A DNA stretch of 64,000 nt from Ecdyonurus torrentis (taxonomy: Eukaryota; Arthropoda; Insecta; Ephemeroptera; Heptageniidae), in the NCBI GenBank assembly GCA_949318235.1, contig OX439132.1, positions 5,502,886-5,566,885 on the forward strand. The letters run 5' to 3'. The notes beneath the pieces are model-generated. The model saw nothing but the letters and a program-made list of their open reading frames with translations. It was not told where the DNA came from and searched no databases. The stretch's first letter is position 1. The number at the start of each line of letters is the position of its first letter. A program made the translations under genes and the position numbers. Of the stretch, positions 16,045 through 25,900 are shown piece by piece.

Positions 16045-19000
16045 TATACCCTATTTTAAATGTCGTCAAATGGTCTTGGTATAATATTCGTGTTATTTTG
16101 AATAAAAATTGAATTAATACATGTGAATTCGTATTTATCAGAATAAGTTTAAAGTGACCTAAATATTCATAAAAGATAGGAAAAAGGGGAAAAAATTATG
16201 TCGAACCTATTTTAAATGACGTCATTAGATACTTGTATAAGATTCACATTATTTTGTGAATAACAAATCAAAAAATACATGTGAATTCGTATATTTCTCA
16301 GAATTAGTTGAAAATGACCTAAATATTCAAAAAAGATAGGCAAAAGTCGAAAAAAAAGTGTCGAACCTATTTTAAATAACGCAATTAGATACTTGTATGA
16401 GATTCACATAATTTTGAATAAAAAATCAATAAATACATGTGAATTCGTATATTTCTCAGAATAAGTTAAAAGTGACCTAAATATTAATAAAAGATAGGCA
16501 AAAATCGAAAAAGTTGTGTCAAAACCTATTTACAAATATGTCACATCGCACATCGTTCTTGTATATTAAAATTTTATAGAAGTACAATTGTTTGCCTTTA
16601 AAATAGGTTCGACACATTTTTTTCGACTTTTGCCTATCTTTTATGAATATTTAGGTCACTTTTAACTTATTCTGAGAAATATACGAATTCACATGTATTA
16701 ATTCAATTTTTATTCAAAATAACACGAATATTATACCAAGACCATGTGACGTCATTTAAAATAGGTTCGACACATTTTTTTCGACTTTTGCCTATTTTTT
16801 ATGATTATTTAGGTCTCTTTTAACCTATTCTGAGAAATATACGAATTCACATGTATTAATTCAATTTTTATTCAAAATAATACGAATATTATACCTAGAC
16901 TATGTGACGTCATTTAAAATAGGTTCGACACAGTTTTTTCGACTTTTGCCTATCTGTTATGAATATTTAGGTCACTTTGAACTTATTCTGAGAAATATAC
17001 GAATTCACATGTATTTTTTGATTTTTAATTCAAAATAATGTGAATTTTATACAAGTGTCTAATGACGTCATTTAAAATAGGTTCGACACAATTTTTTCGA
17101 CTTTTGCCTATCTTTTATGAATATTTAGGTCACTTTAAATATATTCTAAGAATTATACGAATTCACATGTATTTTTTGATTTTTTATTCAAAATAATGTG
17201 AATCTCATACAAGTATCTAATGACGTCATTTAAAATAGGTTCGACACAATTTTTTCGACTTTTGCCTATCTGTTATGAATATTTAGGTCACTTTCAACTT
17301 ATTCTGAGAAATATACGAATTCACATGTATTTTTTGATTTTTTATTCAAAATAATGTGAATCTCATACAAGTATCTAATGACGTCATTTAAAATAGGTTC
17401 GACACAATTTTTTCGACTTTTGCCTTTCTGTTATGAATATTTAGGTCACTTTCAACTTATTCTGAGAAATATACGAATTCACATGTATTTTTTGATTTTT
17501 TATTCAAAATAATGTTAATTTTATACAAGTGTCTAATGACGTCATTTAAAATAGGTTCGACACAATTTTTTCGACTTTTGCCTATCTTTTATGAATATTT
17601 AGGTCACTTTAAACTTATTCTGAGAAATATACGAATTCACATGTATTTTTTGATTTTTTATTCAAAATAATGTGAATTTTATACAAGTGTCTAATGACGT
17701 CATTTAAAATAGGTTCGACACAATTTTTTCGACTTTTGCCTATCTTTAATGAATAATTAGGTCATTTTCAACTAATTCTGAGAAATATACGAATTCACAT
17801 GTATTTTTTGATTTTTTATTCAAAATAATGTGAATCTTATACAAGTATCTAATGACGTCATTTAAAATAGGTTCGACACAATTTTTTCGACTTTTGCCTA
17901 TCTTTTATGAATTTTTAGGTCACTTTAAATATATTCTGAGAATTATACGAATTCACATGTATTTTTTGATTTTTTATTCAAAATAATGTGAATCTTATAC
18001 AAGTATCTAATGACGTCATTTAAAATAGGTTCGACACAATTTTTTCGACTTTTGCCTATCTTTTATGATTATTTAGGTCACTTTTAACCTATTCTGAGAA
18101 ATATACGAATTCACATGTGTTGATTCAATTTTTTTCAAAATAACACGAATATTATACCAAGACCATGTGACGTCATTTAAAATAGGTTCGACACATTTTT
18201 TTTTACTTTTTTTTATCTTTTATGATCATTTAGGTCATTTTCAACTTATTCTGAGAAATATACGAATTCACATGTATTTTTTGATTTTTTATTCAAAATA
18301 ATGTGTATCTTATACAAGTGTCTAATGACGTCATTTAAAATAGGTTCGACACAATTTTTTCGACTTTTGCCTATCTGTTATGAATATTTAGGTCACTTTA
18401 AATATATTCTGAGAATTATACGAATTCACATGTATTTTTTGATTTTTAATTCAAAATAATGTGAATCTCATACAAGTATCTCATGACGTAATTTAAAATA
18501 GGTTCGACACAATTTTTTCGACTTTTGCCTATCTTTTATGAATAATTAGGTCATTTTCAACTAATTCTGAGAAATATACGAATTCACATGTATTTTTTGA
18601 TTTTTTATTCAAAATAATGTGAATCTTATACAGGTATCTAATGACGTCATTTAAAATAGGTTCGACACAATTTTTTCGACTTTTGCCTATCTTTAATGAA
18701 TATTTAGGTCACTTCTAACTTATTCTGAGAAATATACGAATTCACATGTATTTTTTGATTTTTTATTCAAAATAATGTGAATTTTATACAAGTGTCTAAT
18801 GACGTCATTTAAAATAGGTTCGACACAATGTTTTCGACTTTTGCCTATCTTTTATGAATATTTAGGTCACTTTAAATATATTCTGAAAATTATACGAATT
18901 CACATGTATTTTTTGATTTTTTATTCAAAATAATGTGAATCTCATACAAGTATCTCATGACGTAATTAAAAATAGGTTCGACACAATTTTTTCGACTTTT

Positions 19001-19448
19001 GCCTATCTTTTATGAATAATTAGGTCACTTTGAACTTATTCTGAGCAATATACGAATTCACATGTATTTTTTTATTTTTTTATTCAAAATAATGTGAATC
19101 TCATACAAGTATCTAATGACGTCATTTAAAATAGGTTCGACACATTTTTTTCGACTTTTGCCTATCTTTAATGAATATTTAGGTCACTTCTAACTTATTC
19201 TGAGAAATATACGAATTCACATTTTTTTTTTTTGATTTTTTATTCAAAATAATGTGAATCTCATACAAGTATCAAATGACGTCATTTAAAATAGGTTCGA
19301 CACAATTTTTTCGACTTTTGCCTATCTGTTATGAATATTTAGGTCACTTTTGAACTTATTCTGAGAAATATACGAATTCACATGTATTTTTGATTTTTTA
19401 TTCAAAATAATGTGAATTTTATACAAGTGTCTAATGACGTCATTTAAA
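16045..19448. repeat. 158-bp satellite array with one orientation switch
   Basis: About four monomers run in one orientation (16045-16555). After an irregular junction (about 16556-16600), about 18 run in the other. The word ATAGGTTCGACAC recurs at 16602, 16761, 16919, 17077, 17235, 17393, 17551, 17709, 17867, 18025, 18182, 18340, 18498, 18656, 18814, 18972, 19131 and 19291, so the period is 158 bp. Monomers share TTTTTTCGACTTTTGCCTAT, a GAATTC site in ACGAATTCACATGT, and usually the palindrome TGACGTCA. The array is cut by the sequence gap, so its true size is unknown. Confidence 0.97.
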
Positions 19449-19934: not shown

Positions 19935-22900
19935 GTATGTGCTAGCCTTGCAGACAGCAGCAAGCGGCACTCCTGAGTCGTTGCTACATCAGCAACAAGA
20001 TCTTTGTCTACTCCACTTGTTTAACAGCTTCCTGGAGGCTGCCCCACAGCTCGTACTACAACTGTACGTCACAGCAAAGCTTGGAAATATCCCTCCGTGG
20101 ACTGGTATGTGTAACTTAATTTTAATTCATCCCAAATATACACACATATCACTGGCATAGATGCTATTTAAACGCAAAATTAATTTCTTTTTTTCCCCTT
20201 AAAGGTGTAGAACACCTTGAAAGAAAGAAAAAAGTCAAATACATATCCTAACACATTGTACCTAAATATCAATGTTGATTTGGCTGGAGTTATTGATTTC
20301 TAATTTATTTTCCATTTTCAAAATGACAGCTGCTGGTATATGACGTCACAGCTCACTAGTCAACGTGCGCGGAAACAGGCTCCGGCCGAATCAACATCGA
20401 TATTTATTTATGTTGGGATATTAGACATGTTTTTTTGTTCAAGGTGTGCTACGCCTTTAATTTCTTTATTAGGTTATAATGTTCATATGGTTTCAATTGA
20501 TAGGTTTGAGTCTCCTTGCCTCGCTACTATCACTTGCCTGGGCCATTGCTGGCTACACACGTGCCATGAGACTGTGTCGTCCTGACAAACAGCCTGCATC
20601 ATGGGCAGCATTGGCTTTGCAAGCAGCTTGGAGAGCAGGCACTCTCACTGCAAGAATCACTGCACTTGCTGTTCTTGCTCTCACCAGTCCTACGTGGCTA
20701 GCTATTATGTTGGGTATGTCAAGAATTGTTTTAATTGTGTCTGCCAAGTTAAAATTTCTATAATAGACTTCTAAATTTAGTAATAGCTATTGCATTCTCA
20801 TGAAATGCATTTTAAACAAAGACCTAATGATGCTTGAAATCCCCTGTTTCCTTGCTCCAAAACATGTGCAATTCCATTTAAAATTAGGTGATTGTAATTT
20901 TTCCTGAATAACTGGAGCACAACCCCCCCCCCCCCCCCCAAAGTGACATAAAGTCATGTGCTAGCACTTTGTTAGTACATTATTTTTGAGCTATAGTTTG
21001 TTGAATTAACCTGATTTTTGCTAGTTTTCTAATATCTCTTGTGATGGTGTTTATTTTATACTCCTATGTTTGTAGGTCTCCATTGGCTTGCCATGACAGC
21101 ATGGGCAATTTGGCAACGTACTGACTTCTGTGAGACGTGGTGGGAGGAAAGAGCATACAATGCTGTCGTGGGTGTGGTCTACTGCTTTTGTTTCTTCAAC
21201 TTGCGAGAAGGTCCATCACGTCACCGTGCAACTGCATTCTACCTGCTCGCTGCTGTGGAGAACGCTCTGTGTGTTGCAGCCTATGCAGTGTGGGGTGGTG
21301 ACCAAGTGGAACGTGTCACTCATATTGGAAATGTGAAGCTAGTTACACTGGCAGTTACTCTCACCATGTTGCTCGGTAAGTTACATGTCCTGGTGATTTC
21401 ATATTGTCCTGGTACTGTATTACTTTATAATTAGAAATCAACTTACCAATATACTAATTTTAAAGTGTTTTATTATTATTATTATTATTATCCAGTATTA
21501 CTTGTGATAGGTAAATTGAGTTTTTTCAAGGTCTATAGCAGGGTTTCTCAACCTTTTTGAGCTGCGGAGCACTTTTAGGAGTAAGGAGTGCTCACGGAGC
21601 ACTGGGGGGGTTTGGAGGGCGTAGCCCCCTCAAAAAGCCCGCGATTTTTTTTCCAACCACGTGACCGTTTTTTAGGCAATTTAAGTGAATTTAAGTGAAG
21701 ATTTTCAAGAAGATTAACATTCACCCCATTAAAAACTATAACTAAAATTAGAGCTTTAAATTTTACAAATATAATGGAATCAAGGAAAAAATTAAGTAAT
21801 AAATTTGTAACTTCAGAGCAGAAATTGTGTGGTTAATTGAAAAATTAATAAAATAACTTGTTTTTAAAAGCGTGATTTTTAACACTTCTGAACTATTTTA
21901 TTTTACGATTAAAAATGTTATTTTGAGAAATAATATTTTTCTGAAAATATTTGGTAGTAATAGAACTGTCACAAATACTGTCTCCTGTTAAAAAAAAATC
22001 AAAACGATTCTGTCAAAAAATTGAAAAATTAACTTGAATTTATATTTTGGAAAAATTAAGGCTGCCTAGAAAAAACAATATTTATGGCCTTAGTTTCAAC
22101 CTTCAGTATTTACTGAAAGTTTAAAATAGGGACCTTTATAATTTTCAAAATCTAAAATGACTTCACCAAAATTAAATAAATTGTTAATAATACATAACAG
22201 GTATTATTCAAAAACACAAAATACTCATGAAAATTGAGACGTTTTGTACTGTATTGTTTAAAAATTATGAACATATTTTATTTTATTTTTTCTTTTTTTT
22301 TTCTTTCTTTATTTATTATTTTTTTTTTACTTCTTTCTAAATTCTGGGGAGCACCTGAAACCATCTCGCGGAGCACCAGTGCTCCGCGGAGCACCGGTTG
22401 AGAAACCCTGGTCTATAGAGTCACAGATTCAATACTGTTTTTTTTTTTGTTTTTTTTTTTATTATTATTATTATTTATTATTAATAAGTTAAAAAAAAAA
22501 AAATTATTTAGAAAATAGTTGGTAGAGATTAGAGCACGTTGAATTGAAAATTAATAAAACGCGAAAATTCTCTAATTTAAATAGTAAATTGGGACTAGGG
22601 ATCAAATATTCTAGCTTTAGCTAGTTAAAAAGTAGACGTTAAAGGGATGGAGGTATAGTGTCAAAATAAAATACGATGTGCCTAGCATCTCACGTTCTCA
22701 CACTACGTCAAAGACACAACATTATAAAACAGCATCAGACTTACTCTTTGCCTTAGACCGGTTTCGTCCTTTACCTAGGACTCATCAGTAAGGCTTGGCA
22801 GAGAGCTCTGTACAGCTAGAGATGGCTCACACCACATCTGCTAACTGACTGAGCTGAGGAAGCAAGTGGCAGTCGCGTTTATATACGCGATGCCCCCGCA

Positions 22901-25900
22901 GCTGCACGCGCTGATTGGTTAAAATCGCGCGCGCAAACTCGGCTTGCTGTTTAAAACCTCTCATCCTCACACTGTAATATAAAATCGTGTCTAAGAGGGG
23001 TGTAAGACAGGCAGCCAGCAAGTAATAGTGTCCTCCCTCACTTCCCAGAGTTCCCCAACTCTAGAAAGATCGCGAGAACACTACGCCTACCGACTGCACA
23101 GTATCGTGATTCACGCTAGTTACATCGCTTTATATGTTGACACTGGGGTAGGAAAAGCAAAAAGGAGATAGAGTAGGAGAGATAGAATAAATATTATGCG
23201 CTTTGGCATATATAGTTTAATTAATTTAGTACGTGCTCTTATTGACGTTGGCAAGTAAAAGGGCCGAATGAAATAAAAATGAAAGAATATTATTTACAAA
23301 AGCTTAAAATTGACTTGGCGATAATATGCGTATTAGGAAAAAACCATCGTATACATTTGGTATACATTTGGACTATAACTGGGTTATGTTCCTTTCCCCA
23401 AAATTTTCAAAGCTATCTGTGATTATTTCACTACTGTATCAAAATATTTTTATTAGATTATCATCACGAAGAGACTGGCCTTAATTTGTTTTGTAAGGAT
23501 AATTCTTTTCAGTTTTATACATGTGATATACCTATATATTTTTTTTATAAAAATGCTTTAATTAATGCATTTAATTAAATACTTAATACATAATTTCCAT
23601 CACATTCAACAGCCTACCTTGTACAATAAATAAGGAGAAAAATATTTTCTTTTCCAGGTTTGTCCAGCATGCTAGTGTACTATGCATTTTTCCACCCCGC
23701 TGGTGTGATTTTACCCTGCGTGTCTATGGACGACAGTGAGGCGAGGCAGAACCTGTCAGGGTCTTCAATTGGTGCCAACTCACAGTTGGGGAGACACACC
23801 TTACGCTCCCTCAGACATGAACAGCCTGCAGACAGTAGAGCTGGGACTCCTCATAGGTTAGTTTAGTATTGCAACATTTTTTATTATAATCACGGAATAA
23901 TATTTGTGTCATCATCATAAAATATTTAATAATTATGAGAAATTGTATAGAAACTTTTATGGTAATTTGTGCATGCAAGTACACTCGAGAAATAACTTCA
24001 AATTAAATATTTGTAAATTCAACATCTGACTACAGCGCTGCATGTGATAGAAATCTTAACAAACTTAGGGTAGGTAAGTTAAGGTAGACAATAGGCATTT
24101 TATGTCACTTCCCTCACTTCTATCAGGCTGCTAACAAGCAGTATAAAACTAGCAATAATATCACTATGAGCACCTGCCTTCTTGCAGGAGAATGTCATCG
24201 TCTTTTACCTATAATGGTTATTACAAATTTTGATTAAAAAGTGGCTATACTTATGAATTGTTCAATGCCATTCATTCATCATTTGCAATTTCTTCTACTG
24301 TTTTGCATGTTTTGCATTGTATTAAAATATTATGAAACTTTCAGACCTCCATCTTCAATTGCCAACAGCACATCTTTGTCAGATGACAGCCCTAACACAA
24401 GCAAGCAGCTATCATCACCTTCTCCTTCAGCATTAAGTGTAAGTATTCCCACTATCAACTGTCTTAATAATCGACTGTTTGAGTAAAGGGAACAAGTAAT
24501 GGCTTGATTTAATTTTTATTTGTTCATGCAATTTTTTTATTCATAACATGTAAATCTTAATTATTCAGTTATTCGTGTCTATGTTAATTACGTAGATAAT
24601 AGTAGGTAGAGAGTTTAGAGTATGCTGAATAGCAAATTAATTAAATGTGGAGATTCTATAATTTATATTATTAAGTATTGTTCACATGTAAATGTTCAGA
24701 TGTAACGTAAAAGTTACGTGCGTCGACTCAAGTCAACGGATAAATTAAATTGGAACAAATGCAATGAAACAAAGCCGTTCACATGTAATTTTCAATATTA
24801 ATATGAATGGCCCCATTTGTTTACATTGTTCTATTGAGGCATATCAACGCACGTAACCTTACCTGTGAACAATACTTTAAATGGTATTTGGGATCAAATG
24901 TTCTAGCATAGAGAGTGCTAAATATTTTTTGATAAAATAGATATTAAAAAGATGGCGATGTCGTGTCAATAAAATATTATGTACATACCTAGTATCTCAA
25001 GTTTCTGTAGAACCTGAAACTTTTTTAAAAAGTTGTATAAAATATTCTTATTCATTATGTTAACAGATACAGGAAAGCCCCATAAGCAACAGTGAAGCTC
25101 AGATGAAAAGACGCCCTATTTGTGACATAAATTTGTCCGACATTGAAGATGACGAGATCCCTTTACCACCCTCCCCTGCTGAGTCCCAAGTTGAAGAATC
25201 TCCTACTAAAACAGAAGACCAGTTGAAGAGACGTCCAGTATGTGACATTGACTTGAGTGAGATTGACATACCCCCTGTCGAGGAAGCCCAAGGTGCTTGG
25301 CAGCAAGTTAGTGAGGAGAAGCAGACAGAGTGGGAGGCTGCTACCGTAACTACCAGTGACGACAAAGGACTTGGAGATGAGACGGACGTTACAAGTACGT
25401 GCATGTCCACACACGACTATGAAAATATCTGTGCTGTTAACATTACACGAGAACCATGGGGTCTCAGACATTGGGATGGTTATTCTTCAGATATTGCAGA
25501 ACATGACTCCAGTGTGGCAGGAGGTGTAGATTGTGCTAGAGATAGGAGACGTGATACATTAGTGTCTACTTCAACATCTTATTATTCCTCATCATCATCT
25601 TCATCAGGAGATAAGTTAGCACGTGAACCTAGAAGTGAGTATTTAGACTCATTAGCTGATGAACTTAAGTTAGTGGAGACTGAGGATTATGTGTATGTAG
25701 CACAGCCATATGTCATAGATCATTCAGGTGTGGGCTATCCACTTGATACTATCATTGAAGAGGAAGGTAGTTATGAAACTTCAAGTGAAGATGCTACAAT
25801 TATTGTACCTAATCAGAAACCTTCACAGTTAACTAACAGTTGTAGTTCTTTAGTAGCTACAATAGAAGAAATACGACTTAGTGCCTCGTTATGTAATCTG

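Follow-up and report, generated by a model that had tools for sequence, protein, structure and literature searches.

A type I hammerhead ribozyme in an intron of a mayfly XK-related gene probably belongs to a non-autonomous retroelement with the insertion structure of Penelope-like elements

Introduction

A self-cleaving RNA motif that lies antisense within an intron raises the question of whether it belongs to the gene around it or came there as part of something mobile. This question is posed by a 64,000-nucleotide stretch of the genome of the mayfly Ecdyonurus torrentis (GenBank assembly GCA_949318235.1, contig OX439132.1, positions 5,502,886 to 5,566,885), which we refer to as the window. 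An intron of a plus-strand XK-related (XKR) gene, extending from about 21376 to 23657, carries on its minus strand a type I hammerhead ribozyme motif with a palindromic ACCGGT stem III (22744..22803). The original prediction, made from the letters of the window alone, had placed the ribozyme correctly, antisense in the XKR intron; it had framed it as a feature of that intron, and this part did not stand, since the motif is one copy of a mobile element. Very probably, the hammerhead belongs to a young, high-copy, non-autonomous retrozyme-like retroelement that is mobilised in trans by a Penelope-like element (PLE).

Results

The window contains a minimal type I hammerhead

CTGATGA, GAAA, ACCGGT and GTC of the hammerhead were all found on the minus strand at the positions that had been assigned to them. 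Stem II consists of GTCC/GGAC and is closed by a loop of 8 nt, TAGGTAAA, while stem I combines an inner GCCTTA/TAAGGC helix with an outer CTCT/AGAG helix. Stem III had been called loop-less, and it indeed amounts to A-CCGG-U, that is, a single pair with a palindromic tetraloop. The window has a single match to the pattern CTGATGAN{4,30}CGAAAC, whereas none of 100 shuffled sequences contains one. A full type I descriptor matched the window at this site only, in agreement with the proposed type I architecture, and gave one match in total in 150 first-order Markov sequences of about the window's length. A chance origin of the site is unlikely. The hammerhead core, CUGANGA ... GAA ... H17 with three helices and open at stem I, is present both in the descriptor match and in the Rfam alignment.

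Scanning the window against Rfam at gathering thresholds returned nothing. At laxer settings, applied to 261 bases, the family RF00163 (Hammerhead_1) matched 22794-22750 over model positions 1-45 with 30.0 bits (E 9.5e-6). Strictly taken, the motif thus failed the covariance-model check that had been proposed for it, at 30 against 34 bits; its core pattern is nevertheless present at 1,107 places genome-wide. The shortfall probably arises because stem III is two bases shorter than in the model; the hammerheads of the copies at loci L001, L008, L037, L038, L040, L057 and L060 likewise gave no Rfam match at the cut-off. When the 72-nt strand was folded alone by free energy, stem II and the outer stem were kept and the hammerhead core was absent, and the fold energy was not unusual (z -1.5; 11 of 200 shuffles folded equally well). 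Folding of monomer and dimer did not reproduce the core either. By the hammerhead rule, we take cleavage to fall on the minus strand between 22756 and 22755, after the C at 22756, a predicted site that corresponds to position 608/609 of the repeat unit described below. A scan of viral contigs for the hammerhead including its stem III yielded 0 stretches.

The hammerhead is part of a high-copy repeat unit of about 887 bp

We counted the core pattern across the 503-Mb genome, allowing loops of 4-14 nt, and obtained 556 forward and 551 reverse occurrences, with 0 for the reversed control. Among the first 100 places listed, all of them on contig C1, 97 have the window-like loop and three belong to a second ribozyme family. 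This second, distinct hammerhead family of the same genome (CTGATGAGTCCCAGTAAGGACGAAAC, stem III tetraloop AACT; L046, L047 and L048) lies near 10240479, 18642461 and 25060914 on that contig (G000:C1), and two of its three loci exceed the Rfam cut-off, at 39.2 bits.

An 821-base query around the window hammerhead gave 138 matches from 40 scored candidates out of 1,382, the full-length ones being 98-100% identical. The repeat unit is seamless and measures about 887 bp; the tandem spacings listed on C1 are about 890-900 bp. The single open reading frame with reverse transcriptase (RT) and GIY-YIG endonuclease that marks an autonomous PLE is absent from the reference unit, whose longest open frame spans 77 aa. 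One complete unit, without a long open frame, is held by the window on the minus strand (22475..23349, reference-unit positions 885 to 2); in BLAST against a real unit copy, the window copy (L009 1496-2370) matches unit 2-885 with 97.1% identity.

The unit starts at its 5' end with CGATGG (23344..23349). Along the minus strand, the 5' region is followed by CCAATCAG (22911..22918), which we take to be a CCAAT-box-like sequence, by TATATAAA (22878..22885), presumably TATA-box-like, and by CTCAGTCAGTTAG (22841..22853), which we regard as an arthropod initiator-like element. The latter lies about 33 nt after TATAAA and is the predicted transcription start; an older copy, L062, aligns from the initiator onward (unit 511), which fits this prediction. 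Then come the hammerhead, a GTAAGT that resembles a splice donor by sequence only and stands immediately 3' of the hammerhead (22739..22744), and a 3' part that finishes in a T-run and TTATTAATA. The 3' end in the window (22475..22483, minus strand) is, by comparison of ends, of a short, tail-less type and runs into (AAT)n target DNA. At the element 3' end of two other copies (L067, 2700-2830, and L054), blocks of T-run and AAACTT are repeated, as if RT, on starting, had slipped or gone over a short template more than once, which is reminiscent of telomerase.

We compared 80 bases around the ribozyme in 75 distinct copies: 47 equal the reference and 19, including the window copy, have an internal-loop change in common. 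Copies L001-L008 and L055-L060 had been retrieved by means of the exact core, so that core conservation in them is given by construction and is not independent evidence. Taken together, the unit very probably combines the lack of a recognisable protein with a TATA/initiator-like promoter, a hammerhead of the dimer type and a Penelope-type RT start region, a description that we put forward jointly with its mobilisation in trans.

Insertions are often two-armed and carry one tail

In the insertions, full units stand in tandem with their 3' ends facing out, and the innermost unit is 5'-truncated; many insertions are two-armed, with the arms head to head. An arm can hold up to eight full units (L039). 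On contig C1, the 97 listed places fall into 63 clusters, and all 22 clusters that contain both orientations are divergent. The outer ends take two forms: the short form stops at about TTATTAATA, and the long form continues for ~30 nt through ACTAACCGCGATGGTTTTTTCCTAATACGCA into the target. Some tail-less ends do not reach the position typical of the short form; they lie, for instance, at unit 739, 813 and 849. Insertions were counted by genomic position (34 stitched blocks with 35 element stretches, 21 of them two-armed by orientation), and one insertion that ends beside an older copy (L037, --+-) was left out of scoring. Exactly one ~30-nt tail end was present in 18 of the 19 two-armed insertions with both ends visible, and two more had one end outside view. 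C1:1930849-1933590 and C1:1934347-1936773 (L004 and L005) proved to be halves of one two-armed insertion, the true ends of which are one tail and one non-tail. At the centre of this insertion, ~757 bp of other DNA lie between the arms (C1:1933590-1934347).

Target duplications of about 8-16 bp accompany many insertions. In 18 insertions picked by hand after inspection (17 of the 24 listed and L028), the insertion's own flanks share at least 9 nt in 14 cases, compared with 30 of 306 mismatched pairs; L006, L009 (the window copy), L015, L032, L037, L048 and L060 were left out of this test, either for an unclear end or, in the window copy, for lack of a visible duplication. At the centres, the two arms meet within 20 nt of the same unit position in 8 of 22 cases, while the permutation mean is 1.6 and this count was reached in 2 of 10,000 permutations. 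Several of these eight lie, as judged by eye, at palindromes, among them CGCG, AGCT and the ribozyme's own ACCGGT; in the remaining centres, the arms overlap by 1-5 bases or are separated by an insertion of 1-44 bases.

Arms, tails and short duplications together correspond to the published signature of PLEs: a tail of ~30-40 nt at one end only, head-to-head 5'-truncated copies and, in the hand-picked insertions, short target-site duplications (TSDs). For the Anolis element PAc, the relevant passages describe an optional 30-40-bp tail as the sequence between two RT start sites and an enzyme that cleaves and extends both DNA strands (PMC11167929). Inserts of Adineta PLEs are described as having an inverted pseudo-long terminal repeat (pLTR) and a TATA box with initiator; their TSDs measure 8-10 bp, one inverted pLTR bears a tail of 31 bp, and palindromes occur where inverted copies meet (PMC3846280).

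Units within an insertion are nearly identical

We compared the first 850 bases of 63 units from 19 loci. Units of the same arm differ by 0.14 per 1,000 (61 pairs) and those of opposite arms by 0.84 (61 pairs), as against 6.22 between different insertions (1,831 pairs); the 11 units of L039, two of them incomplete, have 0 differences in 55 pairs. This near-identity is compatible with a single circular template that is read repeatedly, and equally with multi-unit RNA from a homogenised array. One unit of L045 (766-1631) deviates from its array in a single stretch of 13 positions (unit 43-55) with two substitutions and a 5-base gap; this may be a later mutation or reflect a different template, and a second template need not be invoked. 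We also considered a stop of RT after one full circle, for which five ends at unit 1-5 had seemed to speak, and rejected it: the supposed ends in L014 and L045 continue into unit-end sequence, and only three stand (the window copy, L004 and L054).

Nearly half of the older relatives begin close to the predicted cleavage site

We mapped 56 5' ends in copies of at least 85% identity, a set that includes diverged copies and two entries at position 1 that are not ends. None of the 56 comes within 5 nt of the cleavage site, which indicates that the main family does not usually use cleaved linear monomers as its template. Nor does any of them come within 15 nt of unit 510, where transcription is predicted to start.

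The next intron but one of the XKR gene contains an older relative of the element's 3' part (24586..25050, minus strand). This relative has ~78% identity over the best 83 nt, lacks the hammerhead and is interrupted at about 24677-24880 by a nested insertion of ~200 bp. With its 25050-24884 part as query, we obtained 40 matches from 40 scored candidates out of 185. Twelve of 27 older relatives start at unit 599-619, and one of them (L075) starts at 609, the first base after the cut. Compared with a uniform range of 470-704, this corresponds to p 1.2e-6, a value that is indicative only, as we set that range ourselves and the stretch 599-619 was chosen after viewing the data. The starts derive from local alignments of ~80% identity and are uncertain by some ten bases; L061 was left out of the count, and L072 was placed at 661 despite a further-upstream piece at unit 606-635. 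Comparison of 25 upstream flanks of older copies revealed no common module at the junction, and the few similarities were at varied distances and orientations. By eye, a tail-like AATGGTTTTT stretch is present in two of ten older copies (L089 and L094), and a reverse-oriented piece of the unit lies upstream in three of 20 (L073, L078 and L083). It is suggested by these starts that some older copies may have been made from ribozyme-cleaved RNA.

The host intron and its neighbourhood

The intron is flanked by XKR exons on the plus strand at 21076..21375 and 23658..23857, both assigned by open frame and splice sites. The last coding exon of the gene has a 37-39% match to XK-related or uncharacterised proteins of the mayflies Neocloeon triangulifer and Cloeon dipterum and a 91% match to an unnamed protein. 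Visual inspection of the intron's six-frame translations of 30 aa or longer revealed no recognisable remnants of PLE proteins; no family-library scan of these was made. Adjoining the element is a non-coding insert (21541-22412) with matching, GGTTTCTCAACC-like ends, presumably similar to a hAT miniature inverted-repeat transposable element. Further upstream, a 158-bp satellite occupies 16050-19448 with ~18 copies and ~3 in the opposite orientation, next to a 200-base N gap.

Discussion

A working model for the mobilisation of the element

In our working model, transcription would proceed across tandem units from the unit's own promoter, and the hammerhead would cut this multi-unit RNA, probably as dimers, a step supported by those older copies that begin close to the cleavage site. 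The enzyme of an autonomous PLE may then capture the RNA in trans, as the integration signatures suggest. AT-rich DNA would be cut with a short stagger, in keeping with the duplications of ~8-16 bp, and reverse transcription would start from both DNA ends, on one at the short site and on the other ~30 nt further on, which would leave one tail and one tail-less end. The near-identical units in both arms suggest that one unit template would be copied repeatedly, and the structure of the junctions that the two cDNAs would be joined head to head through microhomology or palindromes. The window copy would represent a single-arm, single-unit product of this cycle.

The original prediction held that antisense RNA across the intron would cleave itself. 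Self-cleavage of such RNA from this locus appears uncertain, because the window holds a single unit and because an axolotl monomer with a one-pair stem III cleaved poorly: Rtz_331, with one pair and a palindromic tetraloop, is given as cleaving to 6% in an hour as a monomer and as performing better in dimeric form (PMC7229834).

Several observations weigh against a ribozyme-bearing element mobilised by a PLE. The score of the window hammerhead, 30.0 bits, is below the Rfam gathering cut-off of 34. No RT or endonuclease gene of a PLE was seen, a negative that includes neither a genome-wide search for PF01541 nor a family scan of the open frames from 349,801 bases. In one two-armed insertion (C8:47159109), the long end passes the tail site and extends to unit 46, and the opposite end is tail-less. 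Of the 14 flank matches, those in L043, L044 and L054 consist of simple repeats, the window copy has no recognisable TSD, and the ten older copies examined lack a convincing one (best 7-8 nt). In addition, none of the 56 5' ends mapped in the main family lies close to the cleavage site or to the predicted start.

How the template is made

The last point bears on the nature of the template. A homogeneous tandem array could give rise to a linear transcript that serves as template without being cleaved, in line with the in-vitro view of PAc, and the hammerhead would then have no part in making the template. We give this possibility almost even weight. It agrees with the missing main-family ends at the cleavage site, while it is opposed by the clustering of 12 of 27 older-relative ends near that site. 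It also faces the promoter carried by each unit, which predicts ends at ~511 and thus near the position where none of the 56 was found, though L062 does start at 511. Alternatively, and tentatively, we envisage a circular RNA that would be made by the hammerhead and reverse-transcribed in rolling-circle fashion by an enzyme of the Penelope type that starts at both ends of a single DNA break, each end using its own fixed start site on the RNA. If this were true, one small RNA circle would suffice to produce a two-armed insertion with many identical units, the hammerheads of PLEs would gain a job, and PLEs would emerge as what moves retrozymes in animals. For the family as a whole, the predictions are circles of unit length, RNAs whose 5' ends coincide with the cleavage site, and a single start site for cDNA on each DNA strand.

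Other explanations for the repeat

The units might also be pLTRs of an autonomous PLE whose coding copies were not sampled, so that the element would be non-autonomous only in the copies at hand. Adineta vaga offers a precedent, with solo pLTRs and pLTR-flanked unrelated sequence in the passages on this species (PMC3846280), and there may be few coding copies among the 1,107 core matches, only some of which were read. We nevertheless regard this as rather unlikely, in view of the unit-length tandem spacings listed on C1 and of the sampled arrays, in which no segment of coding size lies between units. An ordinary satellite that spreads by unequal exchange or other DNA-level amplification, its hammerhead transcribed as in classical satellites, would explain near-identical units in tandem arrays but fits poorly with dispersed insertions that have flank duplications, varied 5' truncation and one tail per two-armed insertion, and is very improbable. 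Least probable of all is co-option of the hammerhead for antisense control of XKR expression, which could draw on the intact promoter-like and ribozyme sequences antisense in the intron but conflicts with the genome-wide recurrence of the core pattern and with an 80-nt ribozyme stretch that the window copy has in common with others (the group of 19 among 75).

Comparison with known systems

We return to the retrozyme-like element mobilised in trans by a PLE. It resembles PLEs, with the pLTRs and minimal hammerheads of the Penelope/Poseidon clade, in its minimal type I hammerhead, its tandem and head-to-head copies, its 5' truncation, the optional tail of ~30 nt, the short TSD, the TATA box with initiator and the palindromes or microhomology at the inverted junction. 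Unlike PLEs, it has a unit of 887 bp without a protein-coding frame and up to eight full units per arm. The finding of one tail end per two-armed insertion, in 18 of 19 cases, goes beyond the in-vitro report on PAc, where RT start sites are apparently alike between strands according to the passages on this point (PMC11167929).

The comparison with newt, retrozyme and Penelope-like hammerheads that was drawn at the outset has proved apt. Protein-less tandem repeats, a type I hammerhead and high copy number are common to our element and to metazoan retrozymes as portrayed in the sections that treat them, whose units measure about 150-450 bp in contrast to 887 bp here (PMC7229834). Plant and metazoan retrozymes seem to be promoter-less according to the relevant part of a review (PMC7761336), unlike the unit with its promoter-like sequence, while abstracts report that the LTR of one plant retrozyme contains a promoter. 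The PLE-type tail and the two-armed inserts found here are both absent from those passages on retrozymes. With the satellite hammerheads of newt and axolotl, the element has in common a single-pair stem III closed by a palindromic tetraloop (CCGG in our case) and the expected preference for dimers; the repeat is a different one, theirs being about 330-353 bp in the passages cited (PMC7229834). Short Penelope elements of Heliconius are termed non-autonomous and recently accumulated, as in our case; the portions of that report describe no structure, and the word 'hammerhead' is absent from its main text (PMC6685494).

Among the papers listed for non-autonomous Penelope elements or for Penelope-like traits of retrozymes, we found, judging from titles and the beginnings of abstracts, no comparable family; Cervera and de la Pena 2014 and Lunse 2017 stand outside this comparison. 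The role of PLE hammerheads is termed unknown in the review passage on them (PMC7761336). PLEs have been proposed as strong candidates for mobilising animal retrozymes, in a passage that mentions target duplications and no PLE-type tail (PMC7229834). The family described here, young enough for its junctions to stay readable, unites a protein-less tandem element bearing a hammerhead with the tails and two-armed insertions of PLEs, a connection that was previously hypothetical.
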